Of a stretch of 64,000 nt of DNA, positions 3,551 to 54,830 are shown piece by piece. The notes beneath the pieces are model-generated. The model worked only from the letters and a program-made list of their open reading frames with translations, was not told the DNA's origin and did no database searches. Both the position numbers and the translations under genes were made by a program. The stretch comes from Hippopus hippopus (lineage: Eukaryota; Mollusca; Bivalvia; Cardiida; Cardiidae): assembly GCA_946811185.2 (NCBI GenBank), contig OX328110.1, positions 15,864,456 to 15,928,455 of the forward strand, given 5' to 3'. Position 1 is the stretch's first letter. The number at the start of each line of letters is the position of its first letter.

Positions 3551-3831
3551 TGAAAGACTTAAATAAGTGTATTATAATGGGATCCGACTTCCCATACGTC
3601 TTTGCGTTTCCGGGCGCCTTTTTCCCAGGATGCATTATCACATTACTTCCTGCAGACGAACTCTTTCGTCTTGTAACAGACAACCATAGAAAACATTGTG
3701 GCAAGAGAAGAATTTCTGGGGTAAGTTCTCATTCTGTCACGATGTTAACATATGCGTCAATGTATAAACTCTTTAATGTGCGACAAAATAATAGACTTGT
3801 ATAATGTGAAAGGTTCCGTATACGAGTAATC

Positions 3832-3990
3832 AGTGTGGCTCAAATGATATGATTGTTTTGTAAGCTTGTAGAAAACATTGTTGGAAAAGGAAAAAATGCT
3901 GGTTACCAGCATTTTCTCCTTTTCCAACAAAGTTTTCAAAGGGCTTTCCTACTCCTGATCTTTAAAACATGTTATCGTTTGGTAAAGGTT
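3832..3990 (+). mobile_element. TTAA-MITE-1 copy, left end lost
   Basis: The central palindrome is present, with GTTGG on the left arm matched by CCAAC on the right where the family has GTGGG / CCCAC. That is one of the compensated changes discussed in the findings. The right end TGGTAAAGG is recognisable. Confidence 0.75.
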
Positions 3991-4219
3991 TCAACCTTTT
4001 GTCATACTGATTTATCCATATCTTATATAAAAGACATTTCAAAGCCACCTGCGGTAAATTTGTTACGGTGTCGGAGGGAAATCGGAGCCAGTTTCCGTTC
4101 ACAGTAAGTCGATCCTTTTATGTACAAAGGTAATTGACGTTGTTTATGCAGTAAAGCTGACAGTCGGAAGCCAGACGTCATAATGATAAAATCGGCTGAC
4201 CAATCAGTGAACGACGCTC

Positions 4220-4428
4220 ATTATTCTGCTAAATAAGTGAAACGAAACTTTCAAGTCGATGGTAAAAAACCCAAATTTTGCTATTTTAAAAATGTATTTT
4301 TTTTTTTTATGGGGGGGGGGATATCACCTTATCGAATAGTGTATATCCGAGATCAGACTGCACGTTCTGTGCAGTCTGATCTTAATCTTCACTGTCCTCA
4401 AGAGGTCAGTGGGTCGCGTTAAGCAATA
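4220..4428 (-). mobile_element. TTAA-MITE-2 copy
   Basis: It contains the internal ATTCTGCTAAATAAG-type end, an AGATCAGACTGCAC/GTGCAGTCTGATCT hairpin at about 4350-4383 and a GTCAGTGGGTCGCG right part. A run of nine or more G follows a T-run inside it. Confidence 0.65.
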
Positions 4429-4660: not shown

Positions 4661-5058
4661 GAAGTTGTGTGTGAGTACCGGAAAGTGTATACAGTCGTTT
4701 AAGTACTTGGATAGAATATTATTTTCATGCTTTCCGGTAGGTTATCGAGAAATATCGGTGAAATATTTTTCGATACTTCATGGTTACGACCAGTGAAAAT
4801 ACCGATTTTTATATTCTAACTCTTCAATTGAAGACGAAAACAGTTGTTCCCGCGCACTAGTTACCTAGGTAAATGCGCGTGCCTCACAACCAGATGGAAA
4901 TATGACGTAATTTACCTTACATTTCTCGCGCTTGACGTAATATTGTAATGCGTTGCTATGCGGAGGGGGTACGCCACGGGGAATAATCGAAAGGAACTGT
5001 ACTGGATTTTGATTAAGTTCCCCCCAGAAAGAGTTAAAAGCATGAAATAAATAGAATA

Positions 5059-5208
5059 TTTGTTTTTTTCGGTGAAAGATCGAAATTTATTTCATCGAGT
5101 GAACATCATCGGTAATATTTTCACGAGTGGCGCAGCCACGAGTGAAAATATTACCGATGATGTTCACTCGATGAAATAAATTTCGATCTTTCACCGTAAA
5201 AAACAAAT
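5059..5208. mobile_element. 150-bp near-perfect palindrome
   Basis: The two arms, each about 73 bp, are almost identical inverted copies (ATATTTGTTTTTTTCGGTGA... to ...TCACCGTAAAAAACAAATAT) meeting at CGAGTGGCGCAGCCACG. Weaker related pieces (CGGTGAAATATTTTTCG, CCAGTGAAAATACCG) lie at about 4750-4810, so a longer, partly decayed foldback element is possible. Confidence 0.75.
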
Positions 5209-5241
5209 ATCCTCTATTTATTCATTTAGTAGAAATACCTG

Positions 5242-6934: not shown

Positions 6935-7335
6935 ATAATCTAGCCATGCTCAGTGAAAACGTAGTTTAATACATTTGCAATAAGCAGGGTTTCCATGGCC
7001 CCCTGTTTCTTTGAATTTCGACTCCCAAATTTTCAAAATGACCCCCAAAATTCATATATGTGACTTCTTTTCTTCATTTTAAGGGGGTCAAATGACCCCT
7101 AAATCAGAAAGTCATGGGAAAACCCTAAATAAGTATCGAACCATGTCAGCCTGCGCTATCCGCACAGGCTGACATGGATCGAAACTTTTCAATATTCGTC
7201 AGTTTTCTGCAAAGGACAATTCTACCCAATCGTTCAGTCCGATTAAGACAAATGGATTTATATCATTCGACGACTTGCTTGGAATAATGCATTATGAAAA
7301 TGCATTAAGCCCCCTTTCCCAAAGCGCAGCTCAAT
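6935..7335. mobile_element. Family E MITE interrupted by a nested element
   Basis: Ends CTAGCCATGCTCAGTGAAAA and CCCAAAGCGCAGCTCA. The inner inverted repeat is CCATGTCAGCCTG / CAGGCTGACATGG. Other copies read CCAGGTC / GACCTGG, so both arms have changed together. A separate 143-bp element (6985-7127) sits in its left half. Confidence 0.7.
6985..7127. mobile_element. Short CAGGGTT-ended element with 6-bp duplication
   Basis: It begins CAGGGTTTCCATGG and ends CCATGGGAAAACCCT-like (read on the other strand). AATAAG is repeated directly at both edges (6979-6984 and 7128-7133), and removing it restores the host family E sequence. This shows a transposition event after the host copy was in place. 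Confidence 0.75.
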
Positions 7336-12248: not shown

Positions 12249-12477
12249 CCCTTTACCAAACAACCCTGTTTTTACGACCCAGAGGAAGAAGCCTTCTGAA
12301 AACATTGTGGGAAAAGGAGAAAATGCTGGTAACCAGCATTTTCTCCTTTTCCCACAATGTTTTCTACTCTTCCACAGTCAAGTTTCAATTCTTGAGTCAC
12401 ATCTATTTTGTCGTCTGCAAATGCTTTCAATTTGGACAAGTCTAAAATTTTGTCGTTTGGTAAAGAGTTAATACAGG
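12249..12477 (-). mobile_element. TTAA-MITE-1, intact reference copy
   Basis: TTAA at 12245-12248 and 12478-12481 and termini CCCTTTACCA / TGGTAAAGAG. The central 67-bp palindrome (about 12298-12364) is perfect apart from the single central base: arms GAAAACATTGTGGGAAAAGG... meet at GCTGGTAACCAGC. In this orientation the loop reads GTAAC and GTCGTCTGCAAATGC follows it. In the opposite orientation the loop reads GTTAC and GCATTTGCAGACGAC precedes it. Confidence 0.85.
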
Positions 12478-13319: not shown

Positions 13320-14055
13320 CAGTAGTGTTGACATGCCTAATCTCTGTCTTATTGTGTCTAAAAGAAGTGTTATTATGCCCAAATGTGGTGTTGACTTGTC
13401 TAAACTTTGCGTTATTATATCAAAAGGTAGTATGGTTATGTCCAAATGTGGTGTTGACTTGTCTAAACATTGCTTATCATGTCAAAAGGTAGTGTGGTTA
13501 TGTCCAAATGTGGTGTTGACTTGTCTAAACATTGCTTATCATGTCAAAAGGTAGTGTGGTTATGTCCAAATGTGGTGTTGACTTGTCTAAACATTGCCTT
13601 ATTATGTCAAAAGGTAGTGTGGTTATGTCCAAATGTGGTGTTGACTTGTCTACACATTGCATTATTATGTCAAAAAGTAGTATTATCATGTTCAAATGTG
13701 ATGTTGACTTGTCTTAAGACAGTCTTATTATGTGAAAAAGTGGTGTTATCATGTCCGAATACCGTGTTGACTTGTCAAAGCATTGTCTTATTATGTCAAA
13801 AAGCAGTTTAATTATGTCCAAGGGTATGTTGACTTGTTCAAACGCTGTCTTATTATGTCAAAAAGTAGTGTTATCATGTTCAAATGTGGTGTTGACTTGT
13901 CTTAACACATTCTTATCATGTCAAAAAGTGGTGTTATCATGTCCAACTATCGTGCTGACTTGTTCAAACATTGTCTTACTATGTCAAAAAGCAGTTTTAT
14001 TATGTCCAAATGTATGATGGCTTGTCCAAACCCTGTCACCGTCACATTTACTTTT
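13320..14055 (+). repeat. Left array of the foldback element
   Basis: About 12 units with the word GTTGACTTGTC recurring near 13390, 13451, 13513, 13575, 13637, 13699, 13761, 13826, 13887 and 13948, a spacing of 61-65 bp. Units 2 to 5 are nearly identical, the rest diverged, suggesting recent local expansion. Confidence 0.85.
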
Positions 14056-15640
14056 CGACAAATAAGACAACGGTTAGACAAATTAACTCGTCATTTCAAC
14101 AAGATAATACTACTGTTTAACATAATAAGACAGTGTTAAGACAAGTCAACGCCACATTTGGACAAGAAAGCACTACTCTTTGACATAATGATACAAGTCA
14201 ACATCACATATGAACATGATAAAACTACTTCTTGACAAAATAAAACAATGTATAGACAAGTTAACAGCACGCTTTGACACAATAGCACTGCTTTTTGACA
14301 TAATAAGACAATGTGTAGACATGTCAACATCACATGTGAACATGATAACACTACTTTTTGACATAATAGGACAGTATTTAGACAAGTCCACAGCACAATT
14401 GGACATAATAACACTGCTTTTTAACATAATAAGACAATGTGCAGACAAGTCTAATTTACATTTTAGCATGATAACACTACTCTTTGACATAATAGGACAA
14501 TGTATAGACTAGTCAACATCACATATGAACATGATAACACTAATTTTTGACATAATAGGACAGTATTTAGACAAGTCCACAGCACATTTGGACAAAATAA
14601 CACTGCATTTTAACATAATAAGACAATGTGCAGACAAGTCAACATCACATAAGAACATAATAACAACACTTTTGAACATATTAAGACAATGTTTTGACAA
14701 ATCAAGACGACATTTGGACATGATAAGACCACTTTTTCACATAATAAGACTGTATAGAGACAAGTCAACACTACATTTGAAATTTGTAACACCACTTTTT
14801 GACATAATAAGGTAATGTTTTGACAATTAAACACCTCATTTAAACATGATTACACTTCTTTTTGACATAATTAGACAGTGTTTAGACAAATAAACACCAC
14901 ATTCGGACATAAAAACACTGCTTTTTGACATAATAAGACAATGTGTAGACAAGTCAACATCATATATGAACACGATAACACTACTTTTTGACATAATAAG
15001 ACATCGTTAAGTCAAATCACCACCACATTTGGACATAATAACACTGCTTTTTGACATAATAATACAATGGGTAGACAAGTCCACATCACATATAAACATG
15101 ATAACACTACTTTTTGACATGATAAGACAATATTAAGACAAGTTAACACCACTTTTCACATAATAAGACCGTGTTTAGATAAATCAACACGTCATTTGGA
15201 CATGGTAACCCTACTGTTTAATATAATAACACAATGTATAGACAAGTCAACATCACATATGGATATAATAACACTTCTTTTATACATAATAAGACAGAAT
15301 TTAGACAAATCGACACCGAACTTGGAAATATAAAAAAGACTACTATTTGACATAATATTCTTGAAATAGCGTTTTGACAAGTGAACGCCACATTAAGAAA
15401 TAGTAACACTACTGTTTGACATAATAAGACATCGTTTACACAAGTCAGCTCCACATTCAGACATATTATTACTTCTTTTTGACATAATAAGACAACGTTT
15501 AGACAAGTCAACACCATATTTGGACATAATAACGCTGCCTTTTGACAAAATAAGACGATGTTTAGGCAAGTCAACACCATAATTGGACATAATAACACTT
15601 CTTTTAGACATAATGAGACAGAGGTTAGACATGTCAACAC
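14056..15640 (-). repeat. Right array of the foldback element
   Basis: About 25 units of the same roughly 62-bp repeat in inverse orientation (words ACAAGTCAACA and TTTTTGACATAATAAGACA). Alternate units tend to have ACATCACATATGAACATGAT versus CACATTTGGACATAATAACA, hinting at a higher-order 124-bp repeat. Confidence 0.8.
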
Positions 15641-24919: not shown

Positions 24920-25691
24920 TTGAATGGCGTTCTACTCCAGGGCGTTTAAGTCATGCAACGCTTACATGTCTCATTGCGTGTCTTTACTGCGTTCCGCCAG
25001 TTAGGAATCTCTGCACAACGCCTTGCGCATCGTTGTCTGCGCATGTCATATTCTTCAAATTCGACCTGTCTGCTATGACGCATCACCCATCCCCCGAATA
25101 TTCGGGAAAAGTAGGGCTTACAGCGAAGCTATTAGCCTATTACCCAAGCATGTAGGGGCTGTTTTCATAAATGGCCGCTGCATAGGTTACATGCTAGCCG
25201 ATCTCAGCTGAATGAATCGCACCAGGTAGCGTTTTATTGAGTATACGTTTATTTCATTTTGAAATTCAAAGTAACGGTTTTTGTTTTGAAAAGTAGTCCG
25301 GTTCTGTACCCATAATGCCCATATTAGATAGATGTGTATTTGTAGAATGCCATCTAGCGGGAGATAATGCTTCCGCATGGACCTTGAAAGCTCCCCACGT
25401 GACCGGCGCTGCCACTGGATAGCCGACATGGATCTTTCACAGTTACAGATCCAGCCTCAGATTGTTCAATGGCTAAGTCAAACCTTGAAAGTCAATGACA
25501 GGTGTACAAATCGGGGCATAAAATAATTCTGAGTCAGTGTCTAAAACATACTCGTCTGTGGAATAGTCACTCGCAGCCTTTTGGACACTTGCTCAGGGAT
25601 CTTATACGATCCCTGACTTGCTCACGGTTGTTTTATTGGGGGTAGACTAAACGCGTAATGCAGTTCAAACCAGAACCTCTATGCTCGTTAA

Positions 25692-25916
25692 CCCTTTATC
25701 ACACAATCTCGAGTTTTAACGACCCTGAGTAAGAAGGCATTTGAAAACGTTGTAGGAAATGGAGAAAATGCTGGTAACCAGCATTTTCTTCTTTTCCCAC
25801 TATGTTTTCTACCCTATCAAGGACAAATTCCATCGTTTGAACCACATTTAAATAGTCGTCTGCAAATGCTTTCATTTTGGACATAACTAGATTGAAAATT
25901 TGTCGTATGGTATAGA
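25692..25916 (-). mobile_element. TTAA-MITE-1 copy
   Basis: TTAA at 25688-25691, CCCTTTATCACACAATC, hairpin with several uncompensated changes, GTCGTCTGCAAATGC, right end TCGTATGGTATAG. Confidence 0.75.
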
Positions 25917-25997
25917 ACAAAGTTTGTTCTTAACCCATACCACTGGCTCGCGATACGTGTACATGTTCAACAATAAAAGGCACTGGACTTGTGTTAA

Positions 25998-26218
25998 CCC
26001 TTACTCCACAGATACTCATTTTGACGCATCAAGAACAGACAGCTTTTGAAAACATTGTGGGAAAAGGAGAAACTGCTCGTAACGAGCAGTTTCTCCTTTT
26101 CCCACAATGTTTTCTACTCAATCAGATATCTGTATCTCCATTTGTTCACATTTTTGACATCATATCTTTATTTGCTGTTGAACTGGAAGAGTCTAAAATT
26201 GGCATATCAGGTAAAGGG
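25998..26218 (-). mobile_element. TTAA-MITE-1 copy with doubly compensated palindrome
   Basis: TTAA at 25994-25997 and 26219-26222. The palindrome at about 26049-26115 is perfect yet differs from the family in two base pairs: AAACTGCTCG on the left arm and CGAGCAGTTT on the right, where other copies have AAAATGCTGG / CCAGCATTTT. Confidence 0.85.
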
Positions 26219-26248
26219 TTAACTAGTTATAAACTAAAGTAATGGTTT

Positions 26249-36800: not shown

Positions 36801-39800
36801 TTCTTTTGAAACTTGCAAAGATTATTTGGTTCATCAAGGGATTGAACTCTATTTAAAGTGAAGAAAACCTAGTAAACCATTCAGGAAAAGCAGCCATTTG
36901 ATGACTTATTTACTCAACAAAGTCTACATCATTAGTCATATTTCTTTGAAATTTGCTAGGATTGTTTAATACAAGGGATACTGAAACTCTATCAAATTTG
37001 GCTGGGTTCCAAACATTTAGTTTTGAGAAATTGCACTTCATTTTTTTTCACTTTTGCTGTCTTAGATGATTCAAGCCCAGTTGTAAGAACACATTTTTGT
37101 GGAGGGGGGGGTTGCATCATGAATTCATAATGTATGCTAGCATAAAAGCAAATTCACTGCAAGTAGAGCGATTTCAGGCCCTCAAGGGCCTCTAGTTTTT
37201 CAGGGGAGTTGGGGGGATATTATTTTTTACCATGTAAGTTTGTTGCCATACAGACTTTTTATTAGTTGTATGTGTCTCTCAGCGTGAATTAAGTGCATAT
37301 CTTACTCTTTACAAAATTTTTTATTTTGTTTGACTGGACCAGATTAAAAGCCATTGCAGACGACAAATAGAATGTATCTTAAATGATTATTTCCGTCTTT
37401 GATAGGGTAGGAAACATTGTGGGAAAAGGAGAAAATGCTGGTTGAAATTATTGTCTCCTTTTCACACACTGTTTTCAAAATCCTTCTCTTTCAGCGTCTT
37501 TAACTGTGTACCACACAATCCCGACTTTTAACAACCCTGAAAAGGAAGGCTTTTGAAAGCAATTTTCAGAAAAGGATAAAATGCTGGTAACCAGCATTTT
37601 CTCCTTTTTCCACAGTGTTGTCTACACTGTCAAATCCAGAAATCATCATTTTAGCAACATTTAATTTGTCTTCTGCAAATGTTTTCAGTTTGGTCCAAAG
37701 TTTTGTCATTTGGTGGAGGGTTACAACTCGGAATTGTGTAGTAAAGGGTTAAAAGTCAGTGGAGCATTAAAGGGCCATCATGGCCCTCATGTTATTTTGA
37801 GGGACAACCGCTCATTGAGTGCGGAATTCCCGTAATGCCGCAGCCAAGATGTAAAACTGTAGATGTATTCATTTATGAGGAGTCATACTTATTAATCATA
37901 TGCTGCTAGTTTTTCGAATGAAATTGATTGTGCATTTGCAGTCAGCTGAATTTATAATGAGTGTTTGTTTACAAATTAACCCTTTACCACACAATCCCGA
38001 CTTTTAACGACCCTGGGAAAGGGGCCTTTTGAAAACATTGTGAGAAAAGGAGAAAATGCTGGTAACCAGCATTTTCTCCTTTTCTCACAATGTTTTCTAC
38101 TCTATCAAATAAAAATTGCACCATTTTAACTGCACTGAAATTGTCGTCTGCAAATGCTTTCAATTTGGACAAGGTTAAAATTTTGTTGTCTGGTAAAGGG
38201 TTAACTAGATATGTTTATGTAATAGAGAAAGGTAAGTTACAAAAAGATCAATGAAAACCTTGTGCTAAACTTGGTGTCAACTTGAAGTTTAATCCCTTTA
38301 TTTGATGATCTATAAATCATATTATACCCTTGAATTTAATGTAGACAGGTAGCAGGGTAATTGACTTTTTCATACTATTTTCTTATTTTTCAGACGAAGA
38401 TCTCTTTCATCTAGCAGCTCTAGTAGTGACGATGATCTAATATTAAGGGCCAAAAGGAGAGAGGAGGAGGAGAAGAAACTAGAATTAGAAAGACAACGAT
38501 TACAGTATGTAGTATTTGATATCACCTTCATATATTTTAAACTTGAAACTTACATTTCTTCATGTACTTTGTTTGTAATTTTTTCATGTTTTTTTTTTCC
38601 AACCATTATCCCTGGCTTTCAAAAATATTATTTCTGGCAGACTATACAGCATGCCACTTTTGAAAACATTGAGGATGCAGGAAAAATTGCTTCTAATAAG
38701 CAATTTCTCCATATCTATCATTGTTATTAGTTGCTTGTAACAAGAATTTTCTGAATTTGCATCAATGTTTTCACTACTATTCTTGTATCATAACTTTATT
38801 TAAGTCATTCGGAGTATTTTACAAGGATGTATTGAAATTTATGTTCTGGAAATTTGTGTCAGGTTGTAATTAGTTGATTCATCATCAGACTGTCTTCAAC
38901 AAAGTATGTAACTCTTTACCAAACAACAAAATTTCAGACTGGTCCATATTGAAAGCATTTGCAGACGACAAAACTAACATGACTCTAAAATTGAAATTTG
39001 TTTTGAAAAGGATAGAAAACATTGTGGGTAAAGGAGAAAATGCTTGTTACCAGCATTTTCTCCATTTCCCACAGTGTTTTCAAAAGGCTTCTTTCTCAGA
39101 GTCGTGAAAACCCGGGATTTTTTGGTAAAGAGTTAACCTGGATTATTATGCTAGTTTATGAGGAATTTGAATTAAGTTGTGGACTTCTTATTAAATGAAG
39201 TTGATTGTTTCCGTCAAGATATATTTCAGTCAAGAAAAGAACCAGATTTTGAATGAAAGGCTTTCTTGGTCAAAACATCTTACAATATATACCAGACAGT
39301 GTATATCAAAGATGAGTCAACACAGTAGTCTTTTTTAGCTAGAATACCGTACAAAATATACAGAAAACATATATCCAAGCTCATACAGCACATTCTTCAG
39401 CAGTCTGTTCTGTAATTTCTACTGTTAAAAGACCCAATTGCAGCCAAAATTAAACAATTCAAATGTTATACTGTAATGCATTTGAATTTAGATCATACCT
39501 TTTAACAGTATGGAAATTATTGTGAAGAAGACAATCTGTTATTGTATGGTTGGTCCAAGTGTTAGTAACTGGCAGAAAAATTAATTTTAAAACCAGGTAA
39601 AAAGTGAACAAAAAATAGATCAATCTGGCAACTTTTAACTTGCTTTTAAAATTCATTTTTCTGCTAGCAACTAACCCATGGACTGACTATACAATAACAG
39701 ATTGTCATCTGCATGATAATTTCTGTACTTTTTTATGCATTGATTTAAATTGAATGCATTTTAACATCTGCATTGTTTACTTTTTACCACTATTGGGACT

Positions 39801-54783: not shown

Positions 54784-54830
54784 GATCAAGATCAGATTGC
54801 ACAGATTGTGCAATCTGATCATTGACCTGC
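54784..54830. repeat. TTAA-MITE-2 hairpin with compensated base pair
   Basis: AGATCAGATTGCACAG / TTGTGCAATCTGATC. The family has GACTGCAC / GTGCAGTC, so both arms changed C to T and G to A at the paired position. Confidence 0.65.

Follow-up and report, generated by a model that had tools for sequence, protein, structure and literature searches.

Paired changes in both arms of dispersed MITE palindromes in Hippopus hippopus: inherited subfamily states and a low-rate excess that points to arm-to-arm copying

The window, that is, the whole analyzed stretch of 64,000 nt of the Hippopus hippopus genome, is densely populated by MITE-1, a 229-bp TTAA-bounded MITE with a 67-bp palindrome (33 + 1 + 33) in the middle. 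Sixty-two non-overlapping matches to this element are found when the window is searched alone, and 60 in a joint search with the fetched stretches; the perfect palindrome at 12298–12364, which has the family sequence, serves as the reference. The window copies carry a TTAA target-site duplication and inverted ends of the CCCTTTACC type, a combination characteristic of piggyBac-like MITEs. MITE-1 resembles the latter in being short and non-coding, with TTAA-bounded ends reading CCCTTTACC, and differs from them by the central 67-bp palindrome. At 25688–26222, two MITE-1 copies from different subfamilies are located approximately 80 bp apart.

The family is abundant genome-wide. In the 1.07-Gb genome searched (34 contigs), 93,594 palindromes lie at no more than three mismatches from the MITE-1 family sequence, and the 35-bp core, with variant letters permitted at pairs 26 and 31, occurs at at least 88,110 sites; the full number of MITE-1 copies could be several times the latter count. 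The palindrome patterns were also sought in viral contigs and in contigs of prokaryote genomes, with zero matches. The 270-kb sample, comprised of the window and 22 fetched stretches, contains 364 MITE-1 matches and is not random, 20 of the 22 stretches having been chosen around one subfamily. Eighty-four matches with scores under 60 were dropped, leaving 280, and a further 63 with more than six gapped pairs were excluded, yielding 217 aligned copies. The 21 copies of subfamily 1b, described below, were reduced to one in the within-class shuffles and omitted from the loop-base count, the within-sample comparison of relatives, and the simulations for less and more decayed copies.

The preliminary description of the window had flagged five copies, from MITE-1, MITE-2 and Family E, as differing from their family sequences at the same paired positions of both arms and thus staying perfectly palindromic. 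All five paired changes are real, but the palindromes are perfect only at 26048–26114 and 38031–38097. The former lies in a TTAA-bounded copy of the young subfamily 1b (25994–26222, forward strand) and has changed pairs 26 (26073/26089) and 31 (26078/26084). Forty places in the genome, this copy included, were scored at 98–100% identity; 20 of the other 39 were fetched and are nearly identical to it, with zero differences inside the palindrome. Pairs 26 and 31 are changed, and the core is otherwise unaltered, in 21/21 examined copies of subfamily 1b. The paired state at this locus has been inherited in a young burst, and private conversion is ruled out, as the same doubly changed palindrome is present in 20/20 fetched relatives.

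The second perfect palindrome, in the copy at 37976–38204 (forward strand), has changed pair 13 (38043/38085), reading GTGAG/CTCAC. This pair looked private within the sample, and its siblings were then found by the genome search: among 20 fetched of the 39 other scored places, the three nearest relatives have both arms changed. Of the remaining 17, a single one is changed on the right arm alone and two on the left arm alone, and 14 are unchanged on both. The paired state is therefore inherited within a small group.

The other three flagged copies are imperfect. An old MITE-1 copy on the reverse strand (3767–3993) has a palindrome at 3871–3937 with pair 12 changed and, due to two single-arm changes, two further mismatched pairs; its best near-full-length relative among 40 places scored, itself aside, is 77% identical, and its substitution, 12G>T, occurs frequently in the sample on both the left and the right arm. 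The MITE-2 hairpin at 54788–54822 has T/A at pair 10 (54797/54813) plus one outer mismatch, and the Family E hairpin at 7138–7180 has T/A at pair 7 plus further mismatches. In the 270-kb sample, the Family E variant is seen in six of 23 matches (the copy at 7138 included, two of the six being 191 bp apart), so this T/A pair is a state common to a group of copies and hence inherited. A locus-specific origin of the paired variants thus fails for three of the five named cases (26048, 38031, and Family E), whose paired states are inherited from source copies, because groups of copies have them in common. In repeat families, a paired variant will often be a subfamily marker, and nearest relatives need to be compared first.

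The 217 aligned MITE-1 copies contain 1,096 changes confined to one arm; their double changes are complementary in 127 cases (42 of them from subfamily 1b) and non-complementary in 58. Both arms are altered at 31 pairs in the set of 112 less decayed copies, while 300 simulation runs give 14.0 on average and 25 at most; 26 of the 31 observed double changes are complementary and five are not. In 84 more decayed copies, the both-arm totals of 46 and 66 are close to the simulated 42.3 and 56.2. Against within-class shuffles, 28 paired changes are observed vs. 9.4 expected for classes with one to seven changes, and 59 vs. 47.8 above that. At pairs 1–16 (three sets), 18 double changes are complementary and eight are not (p = 0.0015), and one copy, L009_8967, has paired changes at pairs 7, 11, 12, and 14; like L033 below, it may record the copying of several bases in one event. 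As for the other families in the sample, MITE-2 stays within its shuffles (nine paired changes in 47 copies, mean 5.0, maximum 11), Family E exceeds them through its shared variant (17 in 23 matches, mean 7.2, maximum 12), and a relative of Family E shows no excess of paired changes in its 12 matches (one, mean 3.7).

Genome-wide, MITE-1 sites whose 35-bp core is otherwise unaltered include 1,076 + 1,060 (2,136) with a single-arm change of pair 26 and 94 with both arms of this pair changed, whereas about 13 of the latter are expected under independence. Among the 50 distinct both-arm matches listed, 39 are complementary (counted by eye, the same 39 recovered by a script) and 11 are not; the complementary ones are 19 T/A, 17 G/C, and three C/G. 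The expected complementary share, given the single-arm spectrum built from 98 of 100 listed single-arm sites, is 0.385 (p = 1.5e-8). With the 11 non-complementary doubles taken as a control for age and mutational hot sites, about seven of the 39 listed sites would be expected by chance, the observed number being approximately five to six times the expectation. The excess amounts to about 60 of some 73 complementary doubles genome-wide, that is, 2.8% of the 2,136 single-arm changes, and about 2.8–3% of single-arm changes would thus have been paired up by copying. Under a simple one-age model, copying may be several-fold faster than mutation per site, this being our estimate rather than a computed value. 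In MITE-2, 161 hairpins genome-wide have both arms changed at pair 10; among 50 listed, 37 are complementary and 13 are not (p = 0.0005 against an assumed share of 0.5), and the T/A variant accounts for 21 of the 50 matches listed.

On a reading by inheritance alone, source copies would have acquired paired states on rare occasions and passed them on to all paired copies, small or decayed groups of siblings making some of these look private. The three shared cases out of five agree with this, as does the pair of sister loci L034 and L035, which share a paired change and have a flank distance of 4.6%. The flanks of the paired copies at large, however, do not fit. The 39 complementary pair 26 sites, which fall in 38 loci, were fetched together with two loci of the non-complementary type, L069 and L070; the latter are included in the set for flank distances, and L067 is counted on both strands. 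The flank distance is 0.341 within pair types, 0.342 between types, and 0.353 for random copies; that is, the flanks of the loci with listed paired sites are mostly unrelated, as dissimilar as those of randomly taken copies. Besides the sisters, four G/C copies (L036, L038, L054, and L061) are mutually closer than average, with flank distances of 0.15–0.21, and L045 covers two pair 26 sites 270 bp apart.

The old copy L033 is also at odds with pure inheritance: pairs 10, 12, and 26 are each changed on both of its arms, with zero single-arm changes. Forty other places were listed for it, and the first 20 of these, with flank distances of 0.19–0.26, have none of the three on both arms. One of these relatives, L150, has the same left-arm letters at pairs 10 and 12 with the right arm unchanged, and is a possible intermediate for the L033 pairs, although it was retrieved by similarity. 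Within the sample, two relatives of L028_3110 lack its pair: L030_1430, at a flank distance of 6%, and L009_5106, at 9%. Beyond the five flagged copies, L033 (by genome search) and L028_3110 (within the sample) are the paired copies compared to their relatives, while privacy of the others is deduced from flank distances; since the siblings of the copy at 38031 emerged only in the genome search, other private-looking pairs may also have siblings. Inheritance alone, moreover, gives no account of how the sources gained both changes. Overall, we consider it an unlikely but serious contender. The proposal of locus-specific paired changes above chance is partly retained, as a low-rate excess at loci with mostly unrelated flanks, and dropped for the three named cases shared by groups of copies.

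Most arm mutations remain on one arm: a set of 21 close relatives shows 24 single-arm cells, whereas its one paired variant is common to four copies and no paired variant is confined to one copy. A separate observation concerns L018 (the copy at 4372) and L027 (7530), separated by a flank distance of 7.9%, where pair 6 is changed on both arms in one copy and on the right arm only in the other; this is possibly an intermediate.

The loop base of MITE-1 shows a bias towards A>T changes, the direction that loop inversion would give. In copies oriented by their flanks (identity at least 0.70), the loop A has changed to T in 22 cases, to G in seven, and to C in five, compared to 590, 704, and 332 respective changes at A sites in the flanks (p = 0.0007). 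The loop T is present in 8/39 paired copies, 3/39 single-arm copies, and 1/35 unchanged copies (8/39 vs. 4/74, p = 0.017), one of 40 single-arm loci having been dropped due to ambiguous orientation. Part of the higher frequency of loop T in paired copies may come from age, because their flanks are more diverged (0.223 vs. 0.195 in single-arm and 0.183 in unchanged copies), making the paired copies slightly older; besides, the loop is only 1 bp long.

Selection for the fold, by which only sources with perfect hairpins transpose well, favoring the spread of paired variants and the loss of unpaired ones, is less probable than inheritance and in our opinion improbable on its own. In its favor, the overall divergence between copies is 2.5% in the core vs. 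5.7% in the flanks (the copy with the palindrome at 26048–26114 and relatives L071–L090), shared core differences are scarce, and singletons in close relatives are nearly as common in the core as in the flanks (0.269 vs. 0.364 per site). The last observation implies that, once inserted, a palindrome mutates with little protection, and shielding at this stage is ruled out; the lower core divergence points to constraint on the source copies. Subfamily 1b, whose core differs from that of the family at just two pairs, fits the same scheme. Still, selection on sources can generate neither the paired changes of an old single copy like L033 nor the inversion bias of the loop base.

Coincident changes by chance in old copies, at mutational hot sites, or in a shared sequence context would suit the near-simulated both-arm totals of the most decayed copies, the either-arm frequency of 12G>T and the MITE-2 shuffles, but age and hot sites also raise the number of non-complementary doubles, which comprise just 11/50 of the listed pair 26 sites, 5/31 in less decayed copies and 13/50 of the listed MITE-2 hairpins, and given the complementary excess in all three sets chance is rejected as a sufficient cause and is very improbable as the whole explanation.

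We consider it probable, with reasonable though far from complete confidence, that two layers are superimposed here, inherited subfamily palindromes and rare hairpin-templated copying between the arms. To the first layer belong the Family E pair and the two perfect palindromes with changed pairs, at 26048 and 38031, all of which descend from source copies. In the second, a mutation in one arm would now and then be rewritten by copying from the opposite arm. The likeliest route would be template switching by a polymerase that replicates or repairs DNA folded into a hairpin or cruciform; the copying may sometimes traverse the 1-bp loop and invert the loop base. The source copies of the first layer may have gained their pairs by the same arm copying, thus giving it a role in the founding of paired subfamilies; selection for the fold at the stage of transposition is a possible alternative for these sources. 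Arm-to-arm conversion, as initially proposed for the flagged copies, is therefore kept as an interpretation of the low-rate excess (39/50 vs. about seven at pair 26), but not of the three inherited cases. More tentatively, and with somewhat less confidence than in the two layers themselves, approximately 94,000 near-perfect palindromes might be viewed as a natural mutation assay, in which hairpin-templated copying at a few times the mutation rate, in some cases running through the loop, could give rise to new, completely paired variants in the absence of selection and seed paired subfamilies that are then spread by transposition.

Template switching is an already known mechanism, and the low-rate copying supported here at the genome level agrees with it. 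Three studies are relevant. Template switching has been described to create and fix stems of RNA hairpins, the evidence for stem maintenance being called circumstantial by the authors (Monttinen and Loytynoja, 2022; PMC8794818). The likeness to our data is in compensatory changes made by copying one side of a stem from the other and in rare loop inversions, while those stems belong to RNA genes under selection and ours are dispersed transposon palindromes. Homogenization of arms and inversion of the spacer, ascribed to template switching, have been described for short inverted repeats in yeast (Abraham and Hazkani-Covo, 2021; PMC8604942); as here, the arms become alike and the spacer is inverted, but those are multi-base changes in yeast coding genes placed on a tree of strains, whereas we consider mostly single pairs in repeat copies of one genome. 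Quasi-palindrome-associated mutation in yeast with RNase H2 loss (PMC3820800) likewise extends arm identity in imperfect inverted repeats, in laboratory yeast, a genetic setting different from that of the MITE palindromes here. Among the papers listed from the open-access literature searched (one library), no report of arm-to-arm copying in MITEs was found.

Compensatory pairs are usually taken as proof of selection on the fold. If copying alone indeed makes pairs in transposon copies, this inference requires a mutational baseline, and MITE-1 could possibly provide one, with its palindromes numbering in the tens of thousands within a single genome and non-complementary doubles as a built-in control.

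The window also contains other palindromic structures. Overlapping inverted repeats of 130–290 nt, 71–84% complementary, are clustered at 13326–14896, and a palindrome of 155 bp with three mismatches and a 3-bp loop, whose sequence is unlike that of MITE-1, is located at 5056–5210.
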